Shown here: piece by piece, positions 29,257-58,244 of the stretch
Layout: each line of letters starts with the position of its first letter
Position numbering within the stretch: position 1 is the first letter of the stretch
Assembly: GCA_026003175.1 (NCBI GenBank)
Contig: BPGT01000002.1
Location: forward strand, 1,246,661 to 1,310,660
Source: Armatimonadota bacterium
Lineage (GTDB): Bacteria > Armatimonadota > HRBIN16
Reading direction: 5' to 3'
DNA: 64,000 bases
Notes under the pieces: generated by a model
Told to the model about the DNA's origin: nothing
The model's database searches: none
What the model saw: only the letters and a program-made list of their open reading frames with translations
Position numbers and translations under genes: made by a program

Positions 29257-30426
29257 CTAAAAGCGCAGACGTAAACGTAGCCACACATACAATAGGCGAA
29301 CGAGGTCGCGCCCTACCGGCGACAACAAAAACGCCACCACCACGGGCATCATCGCTGCCACGAACAACCAGCCGAACTCACGCCAGGCAAACCGCTGAGG
29401 ATACAAACGGCTAACCCCTTTGGCGTCCACCAGCTTATCACCCACGCGCAGGCGCGTCAAAAAGGTGCTGGACATTCCCTGTCGCCCTTTCTCCAGAAAC
29501 TCCAGCAGGCTAAAGTGCGTGCCGACTGCCACAATGAGCTGCGCGCCCTTTTCGTACGCCAGCAACATGGCGATATCCTCGCTGGTACCGGGCGCACGCC
29601 ACACTGTGTACGGTAGCCCCAGCCGCTGTACTCGCTCCAGACCGGGCGAGACGCGCTCTGCGCTCGTGTATTGATGCACCACCAACTCTGCACCGCACCG
29701 CAACGCCCTGTCGCTCACGCTGTCCATATCGCCCACGATGATGTGGGGTTTGAATCCCATCTCTATCAGAGCATCCGCCCCTCCATCCACTCCGATCAGG
29801 ACGGGGCGCACATCGCGCAGGTAGTTGCGAATAGCGATAAGGTCTTGTTTGAACCGCTCGCCGCGCACCACCACCACCGCATGGCGTCCGGCTATCGGTG
29901 TGCTGATTTCCGGGACATCCAGCACGTCCAGCAAGGCGTCGCTTTCCTCTTGCAAGTACTCCAGCGTGTTCTGTGCGAAAGCGCGCAATTCGCTTTTCAA
30001 CCTCTGCTGAGCCAGTATCAGTAGCTGCTGCACGCGCCCTTCGTCCAGGCGTTCCAGTGGGAAGCAAATATTGGGTAAGCGGCTCAGGCATAGCGTATCA
30101 TCAGTGATAGTAACTGCGTCCCCCTCCTGTAACACCTCCACCAGACGGGAGTCATGACATTCGTACATGGGGATACCGGCACGCAACAGGATATTCGGTC
30201 CTGAGTTGGGATATCGCCCCGTGATGAAAGGAGCGAGATTAACCACCGCCGCTACCTGTCGTGCTACCAGCGCCTCCGCTGCCACTGCGTCTAAGTCAGG
30301 ATGATCAATAATGGCGATATCGCCCGCGTGCAGCCGCTGCACCAGTCGCTTCGTTCGCCGGTCAAAGCGAGCAGCACCCTGAGTGCTCGGGATGGAGCGT
30401 TGTATGTGGGTGGTGGCGCGTGACAC
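29257..30426 (-). CDS. steA: SteA-type septum/envelope protein with TPK-like fold
   Basis: 389 residues. Conserved early block GAARFDRRTKRLVQRL then GDIAIIDHPDLDAVAAEAL, a central thiamin-pyrophosphokinase-like region (VDGGADALIEMGFKPHIIVG, DMDSVSDRAL), and a C-terminal membrane helix (LFVAAMMPVVVAFLLSPVG). In corynebacteria SteA is a membrane protein of the division septum. The GTG start at 30426 is required to keep the conserved N-terminal block; it coincides with the predicted transcription start, so the message may be leaderless. First gene of a four-gene envelope operon. Confidence 0.83.
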   Translation of the reverse strand: MSRATTHIQRSIPSTQGAARFDRRTKRLVQRLHAGDIAIIDHPDLDAVAAEALVARQVAAVVNLAPFITGRYPNSGPNILLRAGIPMYECHDSRLVEVLQEGDAVTITDDTLCLSRLPNICFPLERLDEGRVQQLLILAQQRLKSELRAFAQNTLEYLQEESDALLDVLDVPEISTPIAGRHAVVVVRGERFKQDLIAIRNYLRDVRPVLIGVDGGADALIEMGFKPHIIVGDMDSVSDRALRCGAELVVHQYTSAERVSPGLERVQRLGLPYTVWRAPGTSEDIAMLLAYEKGAQLIVAVGTHFSLLEFLEKGRQGMSSTFLTRLRVGDKLVDAKGVSRLYPQRFAWREFGWLFVAAMMPVVVAFLLSPVGRDLVRLLYVWLRLRLRF

Positions 30427-30432
30427 ACTACA

Positions 30433-30461
30433 TTAGTATCCGAAACGGGGCAAAAAGTCAA
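30433..30461 (-). promoter_or_regulatory. Promoter of steA operon, next to a MITE
   Basis: Minus-strand TTGACT (30461-30456), 17 bases, TACTAA (30438-30433). The expected start site falls at about 30426, the first base of the steA GTG codon. The outer base of the -35 box is also the first base of the target duplication of the adjacent mobile element. Confidence 0.7.
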
Positions 30462-30469
30462 GCGGTGCA

Positions 30470-30655
30470 GAGGGCGTTCGAAATTGCTGGTTGAATGGAT
30501 AGATAACCTAACCCCCTTGCCCCCTTCCCTGCAAGGGAAGGGGGAACGCCCATCTCCTCGTAGGAGAGGGGACGGGGGTGAGGTAAGGCAGGGATAGCAA
30601 GAACGCCTCTCTCCTTGCGCTACAACCAACTTCTCAACAATTCTCGAACACCCTC
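30470..30655. mobile_element. MITE copy 1, 186 bp
   Basis: Ends are inverted repeats (GAGGGCGTTCGA-AATTG on the left; complement of the right end GAGGGTGTTCGAGAATTG). Flanked by a 9-bp direct repeat AGCGGTGCA (30461-30469 and 30656-30664), the expected target duplication. Two internal hairpins: CCCCCTTCCCT/AGGGAAGGGGG and a CTCTCCT/AGGAGAG stem. It differs from the copy at 57971-58157 at only two positions. It codes for nothing. Beyond the right duplication the bases GAGGGCGTTCG recur, so the target itself resembled the element end. Confidence 0.85.
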
Positions 30656-30756
30656 AGCGGTGCAGAGGGCGTTCGGAAACCCTTACTGCACAAGGAGGTT
30701 CGTTTCCTCGTCAAGAACGATTTTTCAGAAACCCTGCGCGGGAAGGAGCCTTCATT

Positions 30757-56252: not shown

Positions 56253-57176
56253 CTATCCATCAGACGTTATCATACCAGTACCGCTTACCGGTTGCAACCG
56301 GGTTCGAAACGCTGGCAGCTCGGCGGCGAACAGCACGTTGTGCGCCCAGCCCGCGTATGCGCCGAAACGCGCCCGGAAAAAGTCACCCACCTGCCAGTAT
56401 ACCTTTTCGGTAAGGCTGCGCCCCTGCAGCTCAGGCAGGTAGTCGCGCCGTGCGATTTGCCATACATGCGTGTCTACCGGTATCGCCTGCGGCTTGTCCA
56501 GCGCAAACAGGCACACACAATCGGCGATCTTGTGCCCCACGCCGGGCAGGGTCGTCAGCGCGTGATGCGCCTCTTCATACGGAGCGTAGCGCAAGCGGTA
56601 CAGCCAATCTCTCCCCCGTTCGTGAAGATACCTCGCAGCCTGCACAACCACTCTTGCCCGATAACCAAAACCGAGGGCAAAGAGATCCTCCTCGCGGGCT
56701 TCTGCCAGAGTGTGCACCGGGGGAAAACGATGGTAATCCACTCCGTCTACTGCTGCCAGTCTCTTTCCGTAGCGTTGGCAGAGGGAATCAATCATGCGCG
56801 TGATGCGCGGGATGTTGTTCGCACTGGAGCACAGAAAACTGAAAAGACACTCCACGGGGTCTATACGCAGCACGCGCAAGCCAGGAAAAGCAGGAGCAAC
56901 TTTGGCGAACCGCACATCCGCCTCACACCATTGCCGATACAGTGGAGCAAGAGGAATGTGTAGCCGGAAATAGTCGCGGAGCAAGGGGGCAATCTCATCG
57001 TTCGGGAAGGATTGATAGAGAACATCATCTGCCGTCTGGCGCAGGGTGACAATATAAGAGCCAATAACCCCCCTCCACTCGTTTGCAGCAACCGGTTTCC
57101 AGCGGAACGACTGCCCGCAAACGAGGGTCACGTCACATCGCAGCTCTTCCGGCGGCACATCTAGCGAACGCCACAT
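56253..57176 (-). CDS. ogg: 8-oxoguanine DNA glycosylase, OGG1 type
   Basis: 307 residues. TLVCGQSFRW, the helical segment NNIPRITRMIDSL, and the helix-hairpin-helix LPGVGHKIADC with Lys216, then IPVDTHVW with Asp235, spaced 19 residues as in OGG1. Lys attacks the sugar and Asp activates, giving glycosylase and AP-lyase activity on 8-oxoG. This is the eukaryote-like OGG1 form rather than Fpg. The ATG overlaps the rex stop (TGATG), so it is the second gene of a rex-ogg operon, linking redox sensing with oxidative DNA repair. Confidence 0.88.
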   Translation of the reverse strand: MWRSLDVPPEELRCDVTLVCGQSFRWKPVAANEWRGVIGSYIVTLRQTADDVLYQSFPNDEIAPLLRDYFRLHIPLAPLYRQWCEADVRFAKVAPAFPGLRVLRIDPVECLFSFLCSSANNIPRITRMIDSLCQRYGKRLAAVDGVDYHRFPPVHTLAEAREEDLFALGFGYRARVVVQAARYLHERGRDWLYRLRYAPYEEAHHALTTLPGVGHKIADCVCLFALDKPQAIPVDTHVWQIARRDYLPELQGRSLTEKVYWQVGDFFRARFGAYAGWAHNVLFAAELPAFRTRLQPVSGTGMITSDG

Positions 57177-57871
57177 CACACGCCGTCAATCTGGTGTGTG
57201 GAGGAGACAACCGGGCGGTCCTCTTCATGCTCTAGATGGTAGGAAAGCACCGCCAGCTCCTGCAGGAAGGAGACGTTGCGCACCACCACGTGTGGCGGAA
57301 CCCGCAGGATAGTGGGTGCAAAATTGAGGATGGCGGTCACCCCAGCGTCTACCAGTCTATCCGCCACCTCCTGCGCCGCGCTGGCGGGTACCGCGATAAT
57401 GCCGATACGAGCGTGGATACGTTCGTTCACCTCTTTCAAACGGTTCACGTCCAGTATCTCATGGTCCCAGAGCATCCTGCCGATTTTGGCGTAGTTGTTG
57501 TCGAACACGGCGGCGATGGTGAACTTGTGTTCGCGCAGCCCGGGGTAGCCTACCAGCGCGGAACCCAGATTCCCCGCGCCTACCAGCAGCATCGGCTGAT
57601 CGCGATGGATTTTGAGGATGCGAGCGATGCGCTGATGCAAATCGCTTACCCTGTAGCCGACGCCCGGCTTACCGAACTCACCAAAATAGGACAGGTCTTT
57701 ACGAAACTGCGCGGCGTTGATACCTGTCTGCTCCTCGATATCTGCGGAGGAGATAGTATGTACTTTCGCCGCCTCGAGGTCACTAAGCAACCGCAGGTAG
57801 GTCGCCATACGCTCGAGGGTCGGGATAGGCACCCGGTTATTACTGGATTCCGTCTTCTTGCGACGTGCCAT
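57176..57871 (-). CDS. rex: Redox-sensing repressor Rex
   Basis: 231 residues. N-terminal winged helix (PIPTLERMATYLRLLSDLEA, AAQFRKDLSYFGEFGKPGVG) binds DNA; the C-terminal Rossmann domain (LVGAGNLGSALVGYPGLRE, AAVFDNN) binds NADH or NAD+ and releases DNA when NADH rises. The ATG is chosen because it starts MARRKK directly before the family core; a longer frame begins inside the promoter. Leader of about 55 bases with AGAGAGG upstream. A TTCACAAG half-site in the promoter spacer could be part of an autoregulatory operator, but no full Rex palindrome is visible. Confidence 0.92.
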   Translation of the reverse strand: MARRKKTESSNNRVPIPTLERMATYLRLLSDLEAAKVHTISSADIEEQTGINAAQFRKDLSYFGEFGKPGVGYRVSDLHQRIARILKIHRDQPMLLVGAGNLGSALVGYPGLREHKFTIAAVFDNNYAKIGRMLWDHEILDVNRLKEVNERIHARIGIIAVPASAAQEVADRLVDAGVTAILNFAPTILRVPPHVVVRNVSFLQELAVLSYHLEHEEDRPVVSSTHQIDGV

Positions 57872-57932
57872 TTTCTGGATAAACGCCTCTCTGAGAGTAT
57901 GTCCTTCGTGAAATATAGCGTAACTAAGCAAG

Positions 57933-57962
57933 ATTATACCTCGCTTGTGAAGAAAGGGTCAA
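57933..57962 (-). promoter_or_regulatory. Promoter of rex-ogg, next to a MITE
   Basis: Minus-strand TTGACC (57962-57957), 18 bases, TATAAT (57938-57933). As at steA, the outer base of the -35 box is the first base of the mobile element's target duplication. Confidence 0.7.
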
Positions 57963-57970
57963 GTTCGGTG

Positions 57971-58157
57971 GGAGGGTGTTCGAAATTGCTGGTTGAATGG
58001 ATAGATAACCTAACCCCCTTGCCCCCTTCCCTGCAAGGGAAGGGGGAACGCCCCTCTCCTCGTAGGAGAGGGGACGGGGGTGAGGTAAGGCAGGGATAGC
58101 AAGAACGCCTCTCTCCTTGCGCTACAACCAACTTCTCAACAATTCTCGAACACCCTC
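57971..58157. mobile_element. MITE copy 2, 186-187 bp
   Basis: Inverted-repeat ends GAGGGTGTTCGA-AATTG and complement GAGGGTGTTCGAGAATTG, flanked by a 9-bp direct repeat AGTTCGGTG (57962-57970 and 58158-58166). Two mismatches to the copy at 30470-30655, same orientation, same two internal hairpins. No coding capacity. An extra G at 57971 lies between the duplication and the inverted repeat. Confidence 0.85.
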
Positions 58158-58244
58158 AGTTCGGTGAATCTGTTCGATATCGACTTGCCAGTGGGCAACT
58201 TCGGCAAAATAGAAGACAGATAGCCTGCGAAAGCTCCCTTTTTC

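Follow-up and report, generated by a model that had tools for sequence, protein, structure and literature searches.

A MITE and an autonomous insertion sequence with similar ends are probably directed to one base at the upstream edge of sigma-70 promoters in an Armatimonadota bacterium

A 186-bp MITE and an autonomous insertion sequence (IS) of about 1 kb, both found in the genome of an Armatimonadota bacterium, occur at a single register of sigma-70 promoters. Such a promoter, with TTGAC and a -10 box spaced 16–18 bp apart and called by sequence and by conservation in relatives, is present at 79 of the ~85 informative MITE sites. Taken as a whole, promoter-directed insertion by the MITE/IS family is in our judgement very probable. 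For the polymerase-capture step alone, in which the promoter would be read via the promoter-bound RNA polymerase holoenzyme, our inference is that the balance tips slightly in its favour.

The window, a 64,000-nucleotide stretch of contig BPGT01000002.1 (assembly GCA_026003175.1), holds two copies of the MITE. Copy 1 (30470-30655, plus strand; inverted-repeat ends GAGGGCGTTCG / CGAACACCCTC) lies upstream of a steA-like gene (29257-30426, minus strand) for which orthologues were found. As the first-pass annotation had described, this element is 186 bp long and is bordered by a 9-bp target duplication, AGCGGTGCA (left, 30461-30469; right, 30656-30664), that begins on the outermost base of the minus-strand -35 box TTGACT (30456-30461), base 30461 being its first T. 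The steA promoter has a weak -10 region (30433-30438, minus strand), TACTAA at spacer 17 or ACTAAT at spacer 18, that is conserved in congeners; the promoter and its -35 box are kept without the MITE in all eight congeners sampled, and the orthologous rex promoter is conserved without it in six. The direct repeat at copy 1 is 20 bp (AGCGGTGCAGAGGGCGTTCG), a correction to the 9 bp given before, because an older, related element has left a remnant end (GAGGGCGTTCGGAAACCC..., 30665-30685, plus strand) that is stacked on the same 9-bp target and abuts the right duplication at 30665. Within 30665-30756 of the window, this remnant end separates copy 1 from the next gene. Copy 2 (57972-58157, plus strand, 186 bp) is in the same register, as had also been claimed, at the promoter of a rex-like gene (57176-57931, minus strand; orthologues found). 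Here the minus strand reads TTGACC (57957-57962) and TATAAT (57933-57938) with a spacer of 18; the left duplication, AGTTCGGTG (57962-57971), comprises the 9-bp repeat at 57962-57970 and a further base, G57971, next to the left end of the element, and the right duplication lies at 58158-58166.

The 4.1-Mb genome (G000) contains ~100 near-identical copies of the element, which is short and non-coding, with terminal inverted repeats and a target duplication, and is therefore classed as a MITE. A whole-genome search with the element returned 43 scored matches out of 176 candidates, and its core pattern gave 144 matches versus 0 in a reversed control; some of these 144 may be the core alone, without a full MITE, because the core also occurs on its own, as a repeat widespread across the genus and in certain other genomes of the phylum. 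Copies were gathered by core sequence, blind to their flanks, and the work was done on the DNA stretches around them: 97 flank-distinct copies were examined with flanks, and 98 had both ends. The length is exactly 186 bp in 89 of the 98 (ends GAGGGTGTTCG/CGAACACCCTC). Target duplications of 9 bp flank 58 of the 98, and duplications of 10–12 bp another 16; the rest are stacks, decayed or rearranged. TTGAC starts at an offset of 8 from the element end in 54 copies, and at offsets of 9, 10 and 11 in 14, 4 and 2; the element is on the upstream side of TTGAC, and the opposite TTGAC orientation is essentially absent near it. Duplication length tracks this offset, with 9 bp paired with offset 8 in 45 copies, 10 with 9 in 12, 11 with 10 in three and 12 with 11 in one (there is one exception). 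Since the two covary, it is the promoter-proximal cut that is fixed, and the duplication ends on the first T of TTGACA. The element end followed by the box, GAACACCCTC-N8-11-TTGAC, occurs 81 times in the G000 genome and 37 times in six congeners, in each case versus 0 in a reversed control. The genome-wide listing of flanks that the first-pass annotation had proposed as a check shows duplications (9 bp, sometimes 10–12) and -35 boxes recurring, and the register across ~80 sites is far beyond chance.

The MITE interior contains a GC-rich double-hairpin core (30508-30587 in copy 1, element positions ~39-118). The internal hairpins described earlier are real: the MITE folds with a minimum free energy of -85.9 kcal/mol (z = -5.4). 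No meaningful Rfam match was obtained. Outside the MITE, congeners carry the core as a repeat in its own right, frequently arrayed in tandem units of ~95–110 bp (G003:C46:18037-18548, G008:C11:13476-13857), and some other members of the phylum also contain it; the MITE seems to have taken up this repeat.

Aligned flanks of the copies read TTGACA, a 17–18-bp spacer and TATAAT. When scored at fixed register against TTGACA/TATAAT, 79 of 94 assessable copies reached at least 8/12, with a null of ~1.5% per side; among the 15 below this score, nine mark the outer end of a stack or are one-sided, and about six are true two-sided exceptions. A plausible start codon follows the predicted transcription start at a median distance of 80 bp, and by our own reading of the protein sequences the target genes resemble many housekeeping functions (recG-, carB-, pnp-, glnA-, rpmA- and dxs-like). 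Perfect promoters of the form TTGACW-N16-18-TATAAT number 46 in the genome, versus 0 in the reversed control; at least six of them bear an element end at -35 by strict end match, and eight by coordinate comparison. For the congeners, a -10 box of at least 4/6 at 16–18 bp was seen at 34 of the 37 sites, to which the rex site adds a TATAAT at spacer 19 (total 35). At one locus (L002, G000:C3:107353-107556) an insertion separates two divergent promoters that have 7 bp between their -35 boxes. Its 9-bp duplication reaches the outer base of each box, so that both promoters are intact. One promoter, TTGACTTTTTT...TCGA, recurs at L058, L059, L150 and G004 L067 with T-runs of varying length (shortened spacers).

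An autonomous element with the same ends, for which the first-pass annotation had suggested a search, was found in the same genome. This IS (989/1012 bp; ends GAGGGTGTTCGAAAAAT / GAGGGTGTTCAAAAAAT, like those of the MITE) encodes a 333-aa DDE transposase and shows the same targeting. G000 has ~10 largely complete copies, and further copies are present in G002, G004 and G009. Most IS copies in four congeners and in the Fimbriimonadales bin KatS3mg016 sit at the register of the MITE, for example upstream of an rpoB-like gene in G004, and at least one, L158, is a clear exception with no recognisable promoter at its site. Copies L206, L209 and L212 have two different in-register promoters, one per end, and lack a shared duplication; this points to recombination or deletion between elements that lay at different promoters. 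The transposase matches PF01609 (DDE_Tnp_1) above cutoff (E 3e-7) and covers most of the length of NF033579 (IS5) at 39 bits, below the curated cutoff of 140 bits. No solved-structure relative of the transposase was found, and an AlphaFold2 model of the L206 protein (pLDDT 41) was too poor for use.

The stacks provide evidence of repeated insertion at one base. At L120 a 1012-bp IS lies between a MITE and the promoter, in the order duplication-MITE-duplication-IS-duplication, and a single 11-bp sequence, CTTGAATCTCT, is present three times, followed by TGACATACT...TAGAAT. As this stack is heterologous and has one common duplication, it records two successive insertions at one base; heterologous MITE+IS stacks of this kind show that unequal crossing-over between identical copies did not give rise to every stack. 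The promoter of the rpmA-like gene carries a MITE in G000 (L023) and an IS in G004 (L200) at the same base with different 9-bp duplications, and must therefore have been hit independently in two species. Similarly, in G002 an element end that arrived independently sits at the very base of the rex promoter that is occupied in G000. Stacking arises because insertion regenerates the target.

The nearest named relative of the IS is ISAae1, an IS5-like element of Aquifex aeolicus plasmid ece1. The two transposases are homologous over their full length (~31–33% identity) with the D, D and E columns conserved, and ISAae1 has a similar size of ~1 kb, similar ends (GAGCCTGTTGAAAAAATC) and a 9-bp duplication (AACCAAGGT), although it is distant in sequence. 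In the one ISAae1 copy examined, the site is TTTACA-N16-TATACT in the same register. We found no account of ISAae1 target choice in the open-access literature. Relatives of the transposase in named records are mostly from Fimbriimonadales (Armatimonadota) bins; further relatives are rare, a search of the phylum yielding 7 among 201 genomes, each from the genus of the window, and one of the phylum of G201 yielding 2 among 247. Those in KatS3mg016 (a Fimbriimonadales bin), G201 (a Caldimicrobium bin), G202 and G310, the last picked before its flanks were inspected, have TTGACA or TTGACT at offset 8–10, a handful of sites beyond the genus in bins whose assignments may be wrong.

A transposase that simply reads a TTGAC word in naked DNA, with coding insertions purged and promoter copies remaining, would explain why no part of the target varies less than TTGAC, why the register is base-exact, and why 9 of 70 TTGAC insertion sites have no good -10 box. 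The -10 boxes speak against it. A -10 box of at least 4/6 accompanies 61/70 MITE TTGACW sites. Away from elements, it accompanies 16/34 TTGACW words that are intergenic and face a gene, 5/20 of the other intergenic words and 3/73 in coding sequence (Fisher, 3e-5, 2e-7 and 1e-26, respectively); genes for these controls were called with a simple program of our own based on codon usage, and the intergenic words include real promoters. Insertions at predicted promoters therefore exceed both chance and other intergenic TTGAC. Furthermore, at two-sided sites lacking TTGAC, 6/11 still have a -10 box of at least 5/6 at the right spacing, versus 3/300 shifted controls, and degenerate -35 sites (TTGCGA, TTGTGT, GTGACA, ATGACA, TTGCCT, GTGACT) retain 5–6 of 6. 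Since the -10 box is enriched over other TTGAC sites and retained where the -35 box is degenerate, we conclude that promoters are recognised and not a 5-bp word. The spacing to the -10 box also varies (16–18), unlike a fixed DNA footprint, and the far half of the target has no TTGAC half-site, which excludes a symmetric TTGAC dimer target. Altogether, reading of the bare word is unlikely. The earlier proposal of target choice is strongly supported as regards promoters, by the 79 of ~85 sites, the like habit of the IS, the congeners and the other lineages; its wording of "GTCAAG-like -35 boxes" was too narrow, as the whole promoter including the -10 box recurs.

Retention could also produce a bias, if insertion were broad and copies were kept only where they are useful as insulators or upstream elements, a role that had been suggested for the hairpins. 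The strongly folded interior and the many copies at genes resembling housekeeping genes are in keeping with this. However, we rejected selection for insulation because it cannot yield base-exact placement or repeated insertion at one base, as in the stacks of different elements at one target, and the autonomous IS, with a different sequence between similar ends, targets alike. An intrinsic-terminator insulator is ruled out by the lack of any terminator-like site within the MITE; both orientations are found (49 vs 30, p = 0.04), and the eight congeners keep the steA promoter without it. The insulator or upstream-element role is thus not borne out, and we consider this explanation highly improbable. 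An effect on expression, putatively through displaced upstream regulatory DNA, is possible. Another reading, in which the cue is DNA shape or some other upstream-binding host protein (a bend, a nucleoid protein) and not RNA polymerase, has a precedent in gammaproteobacteria, where H-NS biases the landing of bacterial transposons and H-NS-bound DNA is a transposition hotspot (Nat Commun 2024, PMC11335895). The hotspots described there are regional, whereas the MITE and IS strike a single base of a sigma-70 promoter. A cue of this type would be expected to give a regional, not a base-exact, preference, and there is little base bias upstream of the duplication; we think it improbable. The main rival to polymerase capture is a transposase that reads promoter-like DNA directly over -35 and -10, which would look much the same.

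In the mechanism that we propose, polymerase capture, the MITE would be moved in trans by an ISAae1-like, IS5-type DDE transposase, as the shared ends, duplication length, target and stacking suggest, and the target-site choice of this transposase would be directed to sigma-70 promoters. Strand transfer would place one cut at T^TGACA, directly after the first T of the -35 box, and the other ~9 bp upstream, and the element would land with the whole core promoter (-35, spacer and -10) intact just downstream of it. The 9-bp target is centred ~5 bp upstream of the -35 hexamer, near -40. Class II activators sit near -40, where they contact sigma region 4; the complex of transposase and element ends may dock on this region of sigma or next to it, or exploit the DNA bend there. 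The dependence on a -10 box ~23–30 bp from the cut at variable spacing, together with the absence of a mirrored half-site, fits holoenzyme docking or a bend better than fixed-sequence reading. That the transposase lands on the promoter-bound holoenzyme, hitting one base only at the upstream boundary of -35, and that this is a family-wide ISAae1-like trait spanning several phyla, we regard as marginally the better supposition. Promoters would offer a safe harbour: they are available in every genome, the coding sequence and core promoter would be spared, and the site would be regenerated, making stacks possible.

Most bacterial insertion sequences choose their targets loosely or via short sequence words, and to our knowledge no bacterial transposon aims at promoters as this MITE/IS family does. 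Searches of the open-access literature turned up no report of a bacterial IS or MITE that targets promoters in a fixed register, and such targeting is likely new. Among yeast retrotransposons, Ty1 and Ty3 insert at Pol III genes and Tf1 at Pol II promoters. These are similar in that the transcription machinery guides insertion just upstream of transcription units and genes are spared, but they are eukaryotic retroelements with an integrase and are not homologous to the MITE/IS family. The IS-derived MITEAba12 of Acinetobacter (PMC6382973) resembles our MITE in being short and non-coding, with shared terminal repeats, target duplications and many copies, and differs in that we came across no account of promoter-register targeting for it. 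A family that strikes promoters at one exact base would represent a new mode of target selection and a natural safe-harbour strategy, and polymerase capture, if true, would parallel in bacteria the polymerase-guided integration of yeast retroelements. Whether bacterial transposases read the transcription machinery becomes directly testable with purified parts. The family could potentially be used to place DNA upstream of promoters with genes unbroken, and MITE/IS insertions would serve as natural maps of promoters in uncultured bacteria.
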